NCBI GenBank assembly: GCA_947631105.1
Contig: CANRKD010000004.1
Location: forward strand, 1-45,077
Length of the DNA: 45,077 nucleotides
Reading direction: 5' to 3'
Origin: an uncultured Bacilli bacterium
GTDB taxonomy: Bacteria > Bacillota_I > Bacilli_A > RF39 > UBA660
Numbering within the stretch: the first letter of the stretch is position 1; every line of letters begins with the position of its first letter. Below the pieces are notes generated by a model that saw only the letters and a program-made list of their open reading frames with translations, made no database searches and was not told where the DNA came from. This document shows, piece after piece, positions 7,147 to 29,554 of the stretch. The position numbers and the translations under genes are program-made.

Positions 7147-7854
7147 TCACTCCCTAAAAATATTTTTAAAAGATTTATTATTTTCTATAAATAATGGAGG
7201 CAAAACTTTTAAACCATTTTTTGCTCCTTTTACACATTTGATCAAAACTATAATAGCATCTTTATCATTTTTTGTATAAACAAATTGTATTTTTTTAGCT
7301 ACAATGTTATATTTTTCACATAAATATAATATTTCTTCTAATCGTTGAGGAATATGAACTAAAAAAAAACTCCCCTTATTTTTAAGAGCATAATTTGCAG
7401 TATTAAATAATTGCTCTAAGGTTAATAATAATTCATGCCTTGCTATAGCCTTAGTGACATTATTATTAATTTTAGAGTTTTTTACATATTTAAAATATGG
7501 CGGATTTACTACAATTATATCAAAATTATTTCCCGGGAAATAATTTTTTATATTTTTTATATCATCATTAATAATATTAATCTGATTTTCTTTATGATTC
7601 ACAATAATTGATTCTTTTGCCAATTGATAAATTTTTTTTTGAATTTCAAAAGAAACAATGCTATTTGAATAATAATAAGACAAAATTAGAGAAACAGCAG
7701 CATTGCCACTACAAAGTTCTAAAATAGAATCTGATTTATGCACATTATCCACAAATTCTGCTAATAAAATAGAATCTAAAGAAAATTTAAATGAATTATC
7801 ATCCTGAAAAATTTTATAGTTTTCATAATCATACAAATCATTTAACTTCTTCAT
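7147..7854 (-). CDS. tRNA1(Val) (adenine(37)-N6)-methyltransferase, YabB/TrmN6-like
   Basis: SAM motif LELCSGNAAVSLIL, NPPYFK; synteny ricT-trmN6-pth. Confidence 0.87.
   Translation of the reverse strand: MKKLNDLYDYENYKIFQDDNSFKFSLDSILLAEFVDNVHKSDSILELCSGNAAVSLILSYYYSNSIVSFEIQKKIYQLAKESIIVNHKENQINIINDDIKNIKNYFPGNNFDIIVVNPPYFKYVKNSKINNNVTKAIARHELLLTLEQLFNTANYALKNKGSFFLVHIPQRLEEILYLCEKYNIVAKKIQFVYTKNDKDAIIVLIKCVKGAKNGLKVLPPLFIENNKSFKNIFRE
7522..7547. promoter_or_regulatory. Noc-binding site (NBS), within trmN6 coding sequence
   Basis: 26-bp perfect palindrome AAAATTATTTCCCGGGAAATAATTTT with core ATTTCCCGGGAAAT (7528-7541), identical to the B. subtilis Noc consensus. Confidence 0.85.
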
Positions 7855-12810: not shown

Positions 12811-12826
12811 TGTTTCACGTGAAACA
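12811..12826. promoter_or_regulatory. parS site 1
   Basis: Perfect consensus TGTTTCACGTGAAACA. Confidence 0.96.
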
Positions 12827-12877: not shown

Positions 12878-12893
12878 TGTTTCACGTGAAACA
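12878..12893. promoter_or_regulatory. parS site 2
   Basis: Perfect TGTTTCACGTGAAACA inside a 36-bp perfect palindrome (12868-12903). Confidence 0.96.
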
Positions 12894-21689: not shown

Positions 21690-21985
21690 TTTGAAATTAA
21701 AAGTCAAAAAGCTCCTTTTTATTTTAATAACATGTTATCAACAGAAATTAACCTTTATAATAACTAACTTTTTTTTATTTATCAACATTATCCACAAATT
21801 TTCAATTAATTATTATCAACAAGTTGATAAATTTATGCACATGCTTGTTTATAAAGTGGATAATTCTTTTTTATAAAGAAAAATCAATAAATTAGATGAA
21901 CAATTTTATCCACAAATTAAAATTTCTTGACTTTTTTAAATGACTAATATTATAATAAAAAAGCTTTATGTTTTAAGGAGGAATC
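21690..21985. promoter_or_regulatory. oriC: oriC DnaA-box cluster (rpmH-dnaA intergenic)
   Basis: DnaA boxes: TTATCAACA 21735-21743, 21779-21787, 21813-21821; TTATCCACA 21788-21796 and 21906-21914; TTATGCACA 21833-21841; reverse boxes at 21822-21830 and 21855-21863; divergent dnaA/rpmH. Confidence 0.92.
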
Positions 21986-23436: not shown

Positions 23437-24048
23437 ATGCAAGGTGTAGTAGTAGAAGCAAAATCGAAAGAGGAAGCAATAAAAAAAGCCGCTGAAGAAT
23501 TAAATGCATGTGAAAAAGAGATAATATATTCTATTAAAGAAGAAAAAGAAAAACTTTTTAAAGGAAAACTAATAAAATTACAAGCAACAACATTATCAGA
23601 GGTAAAAAAGGATTTAAATCAATTCTTAGTAAATATAATTGAAAATTTAGGTTTACGCGTATCTATTGATAGTAAAATAGAGGATAGAAGAATAAATGTT
23701 AATATGACTTCAGACAATAATCAAATATTGATAGGAAGAAATGGTCAAACTTTAAAATCCATAGAAATTTTATCAAAACAATATTTATTAAAACAATATA
23801 ATTTTCCCATATTAATAAATTTAGATGTTGAAGACTATAAAAAACAAAAAGTTAAAAAATTAGAAAATTTGTCGAAAAAATTAGCAAAGGAAGTTATTAT
23901 AACAAAAATAGAAGTAACATTAGATAATATGAATTCATTTGAAAGAAGAGTAATTCATAATACATTAACAGATGTTAAAGGGGTAACGACAATAAGTGAA
24001 GGAGAAGAACCAAATAGACACGTAATTATAAAACCTACAAATTTTTAA
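23437..24048 (+). CDS. jag: RNA-binding protein Jag/KhpB (Jag_N, KH, R3H)
   Basis: MQGVVVEAKSKEEAIKKAAEEL; ILIGRNGQTLKSIEILSKQYL; NSFERRVIHNTLTDVKGVTTISEGEEPNRHVII. Confidence 0.93.
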   Translation: MQGVVVEAKSKEEAIKKAAEELNACEKEIIYSIKEEKEKLFKGKLIKLQATTLSEVKKDLNQFLVNIIENLGLRVSIDSKIEDRRINVNMTSDNNQILIGRNGQTLKSIEILSKQYLLKQYNFPILINLDVEDYKKQKVKKLENLSKKLAKEVIITKIEVTLDNMNSFERRVIHNTLTDVKGVTTISEGEEPNRHVIIKPTNF

Positions 24049-24061
24049 AATGACTAATTAG

Positions 24062-24096
24062 ACCCTAATTAAGTTCTATACTTGATTGGGGTTTTA
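24062..24096 (+). terminator. jag terminator
   Basis: 13-bp stem ACCCTAATTAAGT / ACTTGATTGGGGT followed by TTTT. Confidence 0.8.
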
Positions 24097-24111
24097 TAAT
24101 ATAAAACAGTA

Positions 24112-24135
24112 AAATTATTTCCCGGGAAATAATTT
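24112..24135. promoter_or_regulatory. Noc-binding site (NBS) overlapping mnmE promoter region
   Basis: 24-bp perfect palindrome AAATTATTTCCCGGGAAATAATTT, core ATTTCCCGGGAAAT at 24117-24130; TATAAT -10 at 24142-24147. Confidence 0.9.
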
Positions 24136-24170
24136 ATATGGTATAATAACCCGCAAAAGGAGAATATTTT

Positions 24171-25520
24171 ATGGAAGAAACAATAGCAGCTATTTCTACA
24201 GCATCTGGACAAGGGGCTATTTCGATAATACGTGTAAGTGGTAAGGATGCAATAAAAATTGTGAATTCTATTTTTAAAGGTAAAAATATTGAAAAAGTAA
24301 AATCTCATACAATTCATTATGGATTTATTGTAAATAATCAGGAAGAAATCGATGAAGTTTTAGTTACTGTAATGCATTCTCCTAAAACTTTTACAAAAGA
24401 AGATATTGTAGAAATTAATTGTCATGGTGGGATCGCAACAACAAATAAAATATTAGAAATTTTGCTGGAAAAAGGTGCACGACTTGCAGAACCAGGAGAA
24501 TTTACCAAAAGAGCTTTTTTGAATGGGAGAATAAGTCTTTTAGAAGCAGAATCTGTTGGAGATTTAATTGAAGCAAAAAGTGAAGCACAAAGAAGAATGG
24601 CATTAAATGGTATGAGTGGAAGACTTACAAATATTATACGAAATATAAGAAATGAAATACTAGATATTATAGCAAATATTGAAGTGAATATTGATTATCC
24701 AGAATATGATGATGCACCTAACGTTACACCTCAGTTATTAAAAGATAAGACAATTAAGATAGAAAAAGATTTACAATTATTACTAGATAATTCTAAAATA
24801 GGAAAAATGATTAAATCAGGAATAGATATTGCTTTAGTAGGAAGACCTAATGTCGGAAAAAGTAGTATTTTAAATGCTTTACTTAATGAAGAAAAAGCAA
24901 TAGTAACAGATATTTGTGGAACAACCAGAGATTTAATTGAAGCAAAAATGAATTTAAATGGAATTTTATTTAATTTAATTGATACTGCAGGGATAAGAGA
25001 ATCAGAAGATATTGTAGAAAAAATAGGTGTTAATAAAAGTAAACAAGTAATTGAAACAGCTGATTTGGTTATTTTAGTTTTAAATAACAATGAAGAATTA
25101 ACTTCTGAAGATCAAGATTTATTAAAAATGATTCAAGAAAAAACACATCTAATTTTTATCAATAAGACAGATTTAGAAACTAAATTAAAATTAAGTATAA
25201 ATGAAAATGTAATTAAAGGAAATACTAAAGATTTAAATGGATTAGAAAAACTTAAAAAGAAAATAATGGAACTTTATCACTTTGATAAATTGAAGGAAAA
25301 AGATTTAACATATTTATCAAATATACGTCAAATAAATTTAGTAAAGGAATCAATAAAAAGCATTGAACAAATACATATTGATTTAAAAAAAGAAATTCCT
25401 GTAGATATGTTAGAGATTCATTTAAGAAATGCTTTTGATAATTTGGGAATTTTAATTGGGGAAAAATATGAAGATGAACTCATCGATAAATTATTTAAAA
25501 ATTTTTGTTTAGGAAAGTAG
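24171..25520 (+). CDS. mnmE: tRNA uridine-5-carboxymethylaminomethyl(34) synthesis GTPase MnmE
   Basis: ETIAAISTASGQGAISIIRVSG; GRPNVGKSSILNALL; C-terminal FCLGK. Confidence 0.97.
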   Translation: MEETIAAISTASGQGAISIIRVSGKDAIKIVNSIFKGKNIEKVKSHTIHYGFIVNNQEEIDEVLVTVMHSPKTFTKEDIVEINCHGGIATTNKILEILLEKGARLAEPGEFTKRAFLNGRISLLEAESVGDLIEAKSEAQRRMALNGMSGRLTNIIRNIRNEILDIIANIEVNIDYPEYDDAPNVTPQLLKDKTIKIEKDLQLLLDNSKIGKMIKSGIDIALVGRPNVGKSSILNALLNEEKAIVTDICGTTRDLIEAKMNLNGILFNLIDTAGIRESEDIVEKIGVNKSKQVIETADLVILVLNNNEELTSEDQDLLKMIQEKTHLIFINKTDLETKLKLSINENVIKGNTKDLNGLEKLKKKIMELYHFDKLKEKDLTYLSNIRQINLVKESIKSIEQIHIDLKKEIPVDMLEIHLRNAFDNLGILIGEKYEDELIDKLFKNFCLGK

Positions 25521-25530
25521 ATGAAAACTT

Positions 25531-27396
25531 ATGAAATATGATTGTATAGTTGTTGGTGGAGGACATGCTGGTTGTGAAGCCGCACATATTTCTGCTTTTT
25601 TAGGGAAGAAAACCTTGCTTATAACAATGAACAAAAAAAATATTGCCGATATGCCTTGTAATCCATCTATTGGAGGAACTGCTAAAGGAGTAATTGTTCG
25701 TGATATAGATGCTTTAGGTGGTCTTATGGGGAAAGTTGCAGATGAATCACATTTTCAAATGAAGATGCTAAATAGTAAAAAAGGACCTGCTGTGCAATCA
25801 CTTCGTTGTCAAGCGGATAAAACAACTTATCCTAAAAATATGTTAAAACGATTAGAAAATACTACAAATTTAACGATTCAAGAAGGGTTAGTAGAAAACT
25901 TAATCGCTGAAGAAAATAAAATAAAAGGAATTGTGTTAGCAAATAATGAAAAAATAAAATGTGATGCCCTAATATTAACAACAGGAACGTATTTAAAAAG
26001 TAATATTTTAAGAGGTGCTGTTTCAACAGAAGGTGGACCACATGGGGAAGGAAGAAGCAATCATTTAAGTGATAATTTAAAACGTTTAGGATTTACCATT
26101 CAACGTTTAAAAACCGGAACTCCTCCTAGAATTAAAGCGGACTCTATTGATTTTTCAAAATGTAGTATTGAAGAAGGAGATAAAAAATATTACACTTTTT
26201 CTCATGATGATAAGCCAAAATACAAAATAGAAGAACAACAAAAATGTTATTTAATCTACACCAATCAAGAAACACATCAAATTATTTTAAATAACTTAGA
26301 AAAATCTAGTATGTATGGAGGTTATGTAACAGGCATTGGTCCAAGATATTGCCCTTCTATTGAAGATAAAATTGTCCGTTTTAAAGACAAAGAAAGACAT
26401 CAACTTTTCTTAGAACCAGAAAGTATGTTTTATGATGAATGGTATATTCAAGGATTTTCTACAAGTATGCCAGAAGATGTTCAAGAAAAAATGGTTCATA
26501 GTTTAAGTGGACTTGAAAATGCTATTATTACAAAATATGCCTATGCTATAGAATATGATGCTATCGATCCATTACAATTAAAACCCTCTTTAGAAACAAA
26601 AGTGATAGAAAATTTATTTACAGCGGGACAAATTAATGGAACAAGTGGTTATGAAGAAGCCGCTGGTCAAGGATTAATAGCAGGAATTAATGCAGTAAGA
26701 AAATTAAATAATCAAGAGCCATTTATTTTAAAAAGAAATGAATCATATATTGGTGTTTTAATTGATGATTTAGTAACAAAAGGAACAAAAGAGCCTTATC
26801 GAATGCTTACCTCTCGTGCCGAGTATCGTCTTTTGTTACGTCATGATAATGCAGATCTACGTTTAAGAGGCTATGCCCACGAACTGGGAACCATTACGGA
26901 TGAAATGTATCAAAATTATTTAAATCGAGTACAAAAAATAGAAGAATTAAATAACTTTTTAGATACCACAAAGTTGGAACTAACGAATGATGTAAAAGCA
27001 AAATTTCAAGAACAAAACTTTAATTTACCTTTAAATAAAATGAGTTTAAAAGAACTTTTAAAAAGACCGGAAATTACGTTTGAATTTTTAGATACACTTT
27101 TAAACATCCCATTTGAAGAAGATATCAAAGAAGTTGTAAGTATTGCAATTAAGTATGATGGTTATATTAAAAAAACAAATAAAGAAATAGAAAAAATGTT
27201 AAAACTTGAAGAAAAACAAATCCCTAAAGATATTAATTATCAAAAAATCAAAAATTTAGCCAGTGAAGCAAGAGTAAAACTAGAACAAATAAGACCTATT
27301 TCTATCGGGCAAGCTGCAAGAATTAGTGGTGTAAATCCATCAGATATTTCTATTTTAGCGATATATTTAAAGAAAGAGTATGGAAAAAATGACTAA
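25531..27396 (+). CDS. mnmG: tRNA uridine-5-carboxymethylaminomethyl(34) synthesis enzyme MnmG
   Basis: YDCIVVGGGHAGCEAA; MPCNPSIGGTAKG; GQINGTSGYEEAAGQGLIAGINA. Confidence 0.97.
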   Translation: MKYDCIVVGGGHAGCEAAHISAFLGKKTLLITMNKKNIADMPCNPSIGGTAKGVIVRDIDALGGLMGKVADESHFQMKMLNSKKGPAVQSLRCQADKTTYPKNMLKRLENTTNLTIQEGLVENLIAEENKIKGIVLANNEKIKCDALILTTGTYLKSNILRGAVSTEGGPHGEGRSNHLSDNLKRLGFTIQRLKTGTPPRIKADSIDFSKCSIEEGDKKYYTFSHDDKPKYKIEEQQKCYLIYTNQETHQIILNNLEKSSMYGGYVTGIGPRYCPSIEDKIVRFKDKERHQLFLEPESMFYDEWYIQGFSTSMPEDVQEKMVHSLSGLENAIITKYAYAIEYDAIDPLQLKPSLETKVIENLFTAGQINGTSGYEEAAGQGLIAGINAVRKLNNQEPFILKRNESYIGVLIDDLVTKGTKEPYRMLTSRAEYRLLLRHDNADLRLRGYAHELGTITDEMYQNYLNRVQKIEELNNFLDTTKLELTNDVKAKFQEQNFNLPLNKMSLKELLKRPEITFEFLDTLLNIPFEEDIKEVVSIAIKYDGYIKKTNKEIEKMLKLEEKQIPKDINYQKIKNLASEARVKLEQIRPISIGQAARISGVNPSDISILAIYLKKEYGKND

Positions 27397-28102
27397 GGAT
27401 GAATTTTATAATTATTTAGAAAAATTAGAAATTGTTTTAAATGAAACGCAAAAAAATCAATTTGAAATTTATAAAGATTTTTTATTACAATATAATGAAC
27501 ATACTAATGTAACAGCTATTCGTGATGAAAAAAGTATTTATTTAAAGCATTTTTATGATTCTTTAACTTTAAATAACTATTTAAAAGCAAAGGATAAAGT
27601 ATTGGATATTGGAACAGGTGCTGGTTTTCCTGGAATGGTACTGGCAATTATATGTGAAAAAAATTATTTTGTTCTTTTAGACTCTAATCATAAAAAAACA
27701 GATTTTTTAATAGCATTAAAAGAAAAATTAGGTTTAAAAAATGTAGAAATTATAAATAGTAGAGCAGAAGAATATGTAAAACAACATATAGAAGAATTTG
27801 ATGTAGTTACTTCACGAGCTGTAGCTCACTTGCGAATTTTATCTGAACTTTCTTTACCTGCTTTAAAAATAGGTGGTTTATTTCTGCCTATGAAAGCAAA
27901 TGTTGCAGGAGAATTAAAAGAAAGTTTAGAAACTTTAGAAGTTTTAAATAGTAAAATAATAGATAAAATAGAAATTTGTTTACCTTTTGAAAATAGTAAA
28001 AGGACAATTTTAAAAATAAAACGTATGGGTGCTATCAATGCAATTTATCCTCGTAGTTATGACAAAATTCTCAAAAAGCCGTTGAAAAAAGCAAATAAAT
28101 AA
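27380..28102 (+). CDS. rsmG: 16S rRNA (guanine(527)-N7)-methyltransferase
   Basis: LDIGTGAGFPGMVLAI; TSRAVAHLRILSELSLP. Confidence 0.95.
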   Translation: MEKMTKDEFYNYLEKLEIVLNETQKNQFEIYKDFLLQYNEHTNVTAIRDEKSIYLKHFYDSLTLNNYLKAKDKVLDIGTGAGFPGMVLAIICEKNYFVLLDSNHKKTDFLIALKEKLGLKNVEIINSRAEEYVKQHIEEFDVVTSRAVAHLRILSELSLPALKIGGLFLPMKANVAGELKESLETLEVLNSKIIDKIEICLPFENSKRTILKIKRMGAINAIYPRSYDKILKKPLKKANK

Positions 28103-28138
28103 GGTATATTAATTATAGGCTAAAGGGGCTGATTAGTT

Positions 28139-29554
28139 ATGGATACAGAAAAAAATATTCAACAAATTCCTATAGAAGATATTATTCCTAACCGCTTTCA
28201 ACCAAGACTAACTTTTAACGAAGAAGGTTTAAATGAACTATCAGAATCTATAAAACAACATGGAATTATTCAACCATTAGTGGTAAGAAAACTAGGAGAT
28301 AAATATGAAATAATTGCCGGAGAACGTCGTTATAAAGCAGCTACTCAAGCAGGATTAACAAAAGTTCCAGTGATTATTTCCGATTTAGATGATAATAAAA
28401 GTGCAGAAGTAGCCTTAGTAGAAAATATTCAAAGAAGAAATTTGACCTCAATTGAAGAAGCAAAATCATATAAAAATTTATTAGATAGAGGATATTTGAC
28501 TCAAGAACAATTAGCTGCAAAAATGGGAGTTTCTCAATCAGCAATTGCCAATAAATTAAGACTTTTAAATTTAGATCCAGAGGTACAAGATGCTTTATTA
28601 AATGAGAAAATATCAGAACGCCATGCTCGTGCTTTATTAACTTTAGATAATAGTGAAGATCAAAAAAAATGGTTAAATCGAATTATTAATGAGAGGATGA
28701 CAGTTCGTCAGTTAGATATGGAATTAAAAAAATTAAAAGAAGATAATGAAGACGATGGAGGTATACCTTTAGTAAATATTAATCCAAATATTGATGATAT
28801 TTTAAATAATGCAGAAGATATTAATTCAGTAAGACAAGTGCATGATGTTCGAAGTATGATGATTCCCGATGAAATTGTAAAAACACAAGAACAAAAAACT
28901 ACTCCTTTAACTAATAATCAGCCTTCTCCTAAACAAAATTCAAATAAATTTTTTAATTTTTTAGAGGATGAACAAGTGAATATGGATGTGGGAGATCCAG
29001 AAGAAATATTTAATAACTTTGTTCCAGCAAATCCAACGATTGTAGAACAAAAAGAAGATGTTACTCCTAAAAATATGAATAATGTTGAAATATTAGATGA
29101 TTTAGATAGTATGAATAATGTTCAATCAAATAAAACAGATTTAGAAATAACTCAGCCTCAAGAAGTACCAGAATCAAATGTAATAAATGAGGAAATATCT
29201 TCTCCAGAATCATCTGAAAATTTTGAGCCTTTTAAACCAGTCTTTTTTAGTCAATTAGAACAAAAAGAAGACAAACCAGAACCAGATGTGCCTAATGATG
29301 TTTCTAATAATATTATAGAAGAATATAAACCAATAAATGAAGAAGTAATAGTTGATCCAATGGATAGTGTTATTAAATTAGATCCTTTATACGAAGAAAA
29401 ACAAGAAGAAATTGCAGGTACAGACTTAAAAAGTGCTATTAATAAAATTAGGGATACTGTAGAAGAATTGAATAAAAAAGGTTTTGAAATAGATACTGAA
29501 GAGGCAGATTTAGAAGATTTATACCATATTACAATAAAAATTCCTAAAAAATAA
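28139..29554 (+). CDS. noc: Nucleoid occlusion protein Noc (ParB paralogue) with long acidic linker
   Basis: QQIPIEDIIPNRFQPR; AGERRYKAA; HTH MGVSQSAIANKLRLLNL...SERHARAL is Noc-type; C-terminus DLEDLYHITIKIPKK matches Noc (EEYIQLTIRIPKK); directly after rsmG. Confidence 0.85.
   Translation: MDTEKNIQQIPIEDIIPNRFQPRLTFNEEGLNELSESIKQHGIIQPLVVRKLGDKYEIIAGERRYKAATQAGLTKVPVIISDLDDNKSAEVALVENIQRRNLTSIEEAKSYKNLLDRGYLTQEQLAAKMGVSQSAIANKLRLLNLDPEVQDALLNEKISERHARALLTLDNSEDQKKWLNRIINERMTVRQLDMELKKLKEDNEDDGGIPLVNINPNIDDILNNAEDINSVRQVHDVRSMMIPDEIVKTQEQKTTPLTNNQPSPKQNSNKFFNFLEDEQVNMDVGDPEEIFNNFVPANPTIVEQKEDVTPKNMNNVEILDDLDSMNNVQSNKTDLEITQPQEVPESNVINEEISSPESSENFEPFKPVFFSQLEQKEDKPEPDVPNDVSNNIIEEYKPINEEVIVDPMDSVIKLDPLYEEKQEEIAGTDLKSAINKIRDTVEELNKKGFEIDTEEADLEDLYHITIKIPKK

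Follow-up and report, generated by a model that had tools for sequence, protein, structure and literature searches.

The 45,077-bp stretch of DNA analysed here (hereafter the window) comes from a member of a family of small-genome gut Bacilli and carries, directly upstream of mnmE, a palindrome that raises the question of what a Noc site (NBS) does at this position. An earlier note on this DNA had read the palindrome as an operator at which Noc would repress the mnmE-mnmG-rsmG-noc operon, and hence itself. The analyses described below point to another answer, namely that the palindrome is probably a parS-like, origin-proximal loading site for Noc, and they suggest that it mainly marks origin-adjacent DNA rather than switching its own operon.

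The palindrome and its surroundings in the source genome

The sequence check showed that AAATTATTTCCCGGGAAATAATTT is perfectly self-complementary and that it contains the exact NBS 14-mer ATTTCCCGGGAAAT (24117-24130), in agreement with the earlier claim of a 24-bp perfect palindrome that would be bound by Noc. Among 93 distinct exact sites of the family (one per genome plus hand-picked second sites, many of them picked for lying on other contigs), the base flanking the 14-mer was T on the left and A on the right in 97%, with a weaker A/T preference further outside, and the conserved core is therefore the 16-bp TATTTCCCGGGAAATA. On the basis of composition, the exact 14-mer is expected about 0.002 times per 960 kb, while two copies were observed and the reversed-pattern control gave none.

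Table 1. Position, strand and supporting evidence of the features of the window.
Feature	Position	Strand	Evidence or context
Left-hand NBS, in the CDS of a trmN-like methyltransferase	7528..7541	none	14.3 kb left of oriC
Canonical parS TGTTTCACGTGAAACA, copy 1	12811..12826	none	beside gyrA
Canonical parS TGTTTCACGTGAAACA, copy 2	12878..12893	none	exact match
Probable oriC, between dnaA and rpmH	21735..21914	none	five DnaA-box-like 9-mers at the GC-skew switch
Right-hand NBS, 24-bp palindrome AAATTATTTCCCGGGAAATAATTT with core TATTTCCCGGGAAATA	24112..24135	none	2.3 kb right of oriC, over the mnmE -35 position
Extended -10 of the mnmE promoter, TGGTATAAT	24139..24147	+	TATAAT preceded by TGG
mnmE, operon gene 1	24171..25520	+	TIGR00450, above cut-off
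mnmG, operon gene 2	25531..27396	+	TIGR00136, above cut-off
rsmG, operon gene 3	27380..28102	+	TIGR00138, above cut-off
noc, operon gene 4 (471 aa)	28139..29554	+	ParB_N and ParB-type HTH, NBS-specifying residues

The mnmE promoter has a TATAAT (24142-24147) preceded by TGG, and the centre of the NBS lies 18 bp upstream of this extended -10. The best -35 overlapping the NBS is TTTCCC, which scores only 3/6, and no good -35 was found outside it, so that the NBS covers the -35 position of what is the only evident mnmE promoter of the source genome, as had been described. The order, spacing and families of the genes also bear out the description of noc as the fourth co-directional gene: mnmE and mnmG are separated by 10 bp, mnmG and rsmG overlap by 17 bp, and rsmG and noc are separated by 36 bp. 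The statement that the operon has no obvious internal terminator agrees with a scan of 23900-28300, which returned no terminator-like site; the same scan also left unflagged the jag terminator, which is readable by eye as a stem with a short T tract at about 24061-24096.

The genome-wide scan of the source assembly (960 kb in 62 contigs, 88% complete) detected NBS, with one mismatch allowed, at only two positions, which are both within the window. The left-hand copy, which is identical to the one upstream of mnmE, lies in a trmN-like methyltransferase gene (7147-7854, minus strand), and two exact copies of parS are located 9 kb left of oriC; neither this second NBS nor the parS pair appears in the earlier note. 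In other genomes, the gyrA-side interval that holds parS in the window carries interleaved arrays of parS and NBS. A Soj-Spo0J pair, whose ParB has parS-type residues, is encoded on another contig of the source genome (L131). An arrangement with Noc as the only ParB of this organism and NBS in place of parS was consequently rejected, since both Soj-Spo0J and parS are present.

The conservation of the left-hand site was analysed at the codon level in the 20 genomes of the genus that have the trmN gene. An exact NBS occurred at the homologous codons in 17 of them, always written TTC CCG GGA; one further genome has CCA, giving one mismatch, and the remaining two lost the NBS together with the amino acids. 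In the window, TTC accounts for 6% of Phe codons and CCG for 5.6% of Pro codons, and the fixation of such rare codons indicates that the DNA, and not merely the protein, appears to be conserved at this position. A promoter role for an NBS inside trmN is not likely.

NBS across the family and the class

The 145 genomes of the family were scanned for NBS at up to one mismatch, and sites were detected in 128 of them, mostly one to four per genome, with the reversed control almost always at zero. Most of the 17 genomes that returned no NBS at this threshold encode Noc, and degenerate or shifted sites that the exact pattern misses may therefore exist; since most family genomes are drafts, some NBS may also be unseen. 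Two NBS-rich genomes were observed, one with 23 sites at up to one mismatch (G058) and one with 10 exact sites, some of them in tandem next to gyrA where contigs end (G300).

An origin-region gene was found in the flank of 89 of the 93 distinct exact sites, a set that is not strictly random, and 31 of the 93 fall within coding sequences. The sites were located in trmN (15), in the pth-trmN interval (13), in dnaX (9), in the region of gyrA and its neighbour (24), between jag and mnmE (6; 6-7 when counted as upstream of mnmE) and in rsmG (5), in addition to other positions. The four that are not beside genes of the origin set (on L166, L167, L170 and L171) comprise sites within a helicase-like gene in two related genomes (L166:3354 and L167:3730), one in or at the end of a polC-like gene (L170:2141) and one near and upstream of eno (L171:3580). 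On a near-complete contig of 1.04 Mb (L050), all four one-mismatch sites fall between 56.8 and 77.3 kb, a 20-kb stretch that also contains dnaA (73.5-74.9 kb), and in six more family genomes (G142, G093, G062, G049, G074 and G072) NBS are found about 7-27 kb from dnaA. As far as sequence can document it, NBS are thus origin-restricted across the family, and the palindromes have the distribution expected of parS-like sites, being few, conserved, near oriC and tolerated inside genes. In several genomes NBS are also interleaved with parS (L122, L099, L092 and L084). In the first of these, a 1.1-kb stretch next to gyrA (867-1975) contains five exact NBS in alternation with eight parS-like sites, forming a combined Noc/ParB array.

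In the class-wide sample, NBS were present in families having Noc but absent from those that have a single ParB. One genome with NBS (G239, 75% complete) is not among the listed Noc carriers, though its family has Noc. Six genomes with classical Noc from other Bacilli families, complete or nearly so (G034, G185, G196, G207, G213 and G320) carried only 0-2 exact NBS cores, and in the complete genomes of these families the exact cores lie away from dnaA. With so few exact cores, the exact pattern is a poor gauge of the number of NBS in those families, suggesting that their sites may be degenerate or different.

Autoregulation and other explanations of the site

The proposal that Noc regulates its own operon was analysed in 45 loci with a readable region upstream of mnmE, 19 of which have an NBS there. 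The first form of this proposal holds that the site exists as a dedicated operator, where bound Noc blocks RNA polymerase at the mnmE promoter and so sets its own level. Consistent with it, the promoter of the window has no good -35 outside the NBS, noc is fourth in a run without detected terminators, and KorB, a relative of ParB, is able to repress promoters (PMC11790492). The geometry of the window, with the NBS centre 17-18 bp from the -10 and over the -35, was also found in L003, L004, L014 and L071, but these loci and the window make up only 5 of the 19, whereas in 10 others, L005 and L016 among them, the NBS centre lies 35-123 bp from the -10, with an intact -35 in between, and in four there is no promoter between the NBS and mnmE. 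The overlap with the promoter of its own operon that would be expected of an autoregulatory operator is therefore not conserved. The presence of the NBS was also independent of whether noc belongs to the operon: where noc adjoins rsmG, 13 of 34 loci have an NBS at mnmE, and where the two are separated, 4 of 9 do (Fisher p = 1, which is only descriptive because the loci are related). Three loci keep the NBS at mnmE despite opposite-strand genes separating noc from rsmG (L020, L023 and L026), while 21 loci in which noc still adjoins rsmG lack it. Furthermore, the identical NBS inside trmN cannot be a noc operator, and in Staphylococcus aureus Noc restrains replication mainly post-translationally, even though DnaA was 1.7-fold higher without Noc (PMC5540599). 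A dedicated operator is therefore improbable, autoregulation probably does not explain the retention of the site, and as a conserved function it was rejected, given the variable promoter geometry and the lack of association with noc operon membership. The conservation check that the earlier note had proposed thus gave a divided result, as the NBS recurs between jag and mnmE in many relatives at distances from the promoter that vary, and the loss of the palindrome in close relatives, named there as grounds against autoregulation, has in part occurred. Searches of the open-access literature turned up no description of Noc autoregulation.

A combined explanation, which overlaps with the preferred one, would have the palindrome act both as an origin-loading site and, in the clade with the -35 overlap, as a working autoregulatory operator. 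Every point in favour of the origin-site reading counts for it as well, and the promoter of the five overlapping loci seems reliant on its extended -10. Against this, 25 of the 26 loci that lack an NBS have an extended -10 too, as do loci whose NBS is distant, so that this element is no adaptation to the site. Coexisting autoregulation in this clade is accordingly a tentative possibility, somewhat short of an even chance. Since the NBS copy lies over the -35 position, transcription of mnmE-mnmG-rsmG-noc may fall when Noc is bound, both in this genome and in its closest relatives, and such repression may be a lineage-specific by-product rather than the reason for which the site was kept. An explanation unrelated to Noc, in which the palindrome is a transcription terminator or arose by chance, finds a point in its favour in L045, where, directly behind jag, the palindrome precedes a stretch of five T. 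This terminator-like look is confined to L045 and its near relatives, and a terminator function was rejected on that ground; a chance origin was rejected by the controls, which are near zero while the exact core occurs in most family genomes. As NBS are also restricted to Noc-bearing families and conserved within genes, this explanation retains only a very slight probability.

Noc as a candidate origin-loading protein

The best family match of the predicted Noc is nucleoid_noc (TIGR04285), with 299 bits against a cut-off of 315, the score being slightly under the curated cut-off because the match spans residues 6-205 only. The closest solved structures are Noc (7ng0, 7nfu and 7ol9), and alignment to them placed Q133, K139, N144 and R161 at the specificity positions. 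The published code for NBS specificity consists of Q173, K179 and/or K184, and R201, where one lysine suffices (PMC7383237). The window protein carries this code at Q133, K139 and R161, and on this match it should bind NBS. The NBS-specifying residues were invariant in 16 aligned proteins, as were the GERR and ENIQR residues of the CTP-binding region. The sequences thus document the NBS itself and its pairing with an NBS-type Noc, together with the family-wide origin restriction and the codon-level conservation of the second site.

On the origin-loading reading, Noc would recognise the 16-bp core, probably load there as a CTP-dependent clamp and then spread, and loaded Noc would mark or anchor the surroundings of oriC in a manner similar to that of ParB at parS. 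The downstream effect may be a local division block, a membrane tether or a control of replication such as the restraint reported in S. aureus (PMC5540599). The resemblance to the ParB(Spo0J)-parS centromere lies in the few sites near oriC, often in genes or small arrays and in several genomes interleaved with parS. The differences are that the NBS core is not that of parS, that the protein is another one, with a separate Soj-Spo0J and two parS in the source genome, and that no ParA gene lies beside noc. By analogy, Noc would also resemble KorB-type repressors in being a CTP-clamp protein of the ParB fold able to act at promoters, but KorB belongs to a plasmid system that works with KorA on operators, whereas here the promoter overlap is not conserved.

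The common NBS core, the Q/K/R specificity residues, the CTP-binding region and the position of noc beside rsmG are shared with the Noc-NBS systems of Bacillus subtilis and S. aureus. In B. subtilis, about 70 NBS (PMC4331003) are widely spread over the chromosome, and in S. aureus nearly all of the 41 Noc ChIP loci lie in the origin-proximal half (PMC5540599), while the family described here usually has one to four NBS, mostly within about 27 kb of dnaA. The tens of sites over the chromosome, absent near ter, that would be expected of an occlusion system were not found in the source genome, where the exact pattern gives two sites in 960 kb and degenerate ones may exist. This parS-like distribution and the missing N-terminal helix described below identify the system as a variant of Noc-NBS. 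In a broader reading, which may be right or wrong with about equal chance, Noc in this family would be a second origin-restricted, centromere-like system rather than a chromosome-wide occlusion factor, with NBS interleaved with parS and a linker motif in place of the N-terminal helix.

According to a published account, parS is confined to the surroundings of oriC and NBS are widely spread (PMC7383237), and a family in which exact NBS are held at the origin, some of them fixed in genes, breaks this contrast; no earlier report of origin-restricted NBS was found in the open-access literature. The finding bears on the origin of Noc from ParB by duplication. If Noc is indeed origin-restricted here, the system would be an intermediate between ParB and classical Noc or else a reduced form of classical Noc. 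The family also makes testable whether Noc had an older job at the origin, in segregation, anchoring or replication control, before chromosome-wide occlusion.

The N-terminal region sets this Noc apart from those of B. subtilis and S. aureus. An amphipathic membrane-targeting helix at about residues 1-14 has been reported in all Noc homologues examined (PMC4331003), whereas the window protein begins directly at the N-terminal domain, its residue 4 aligning to residue 27 of the 7ol9 chain, and none of 58 relatives has an N-terminal helix extension. Its linker is long and, although otherwise variable, contains the near-invariant motif NKFFNFLEDE (residues 269-278; 28943-28972 in the window), which was found in 52 of 59 proteins. 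It is a guess from the sequence that this motif might replace the missing membrane helix; its hydrophobic moment is unremarkable. The structure model (mean pLDDT 66) showed a ParB-like C-terminal domain and, with low confidence, a short helix at 271-281 in the otherwise disordered linker. The motif resembles the N-terminal membrane helix of B. subtilis Noc, which is rich in phenylalanine (F5, F8 and F9).
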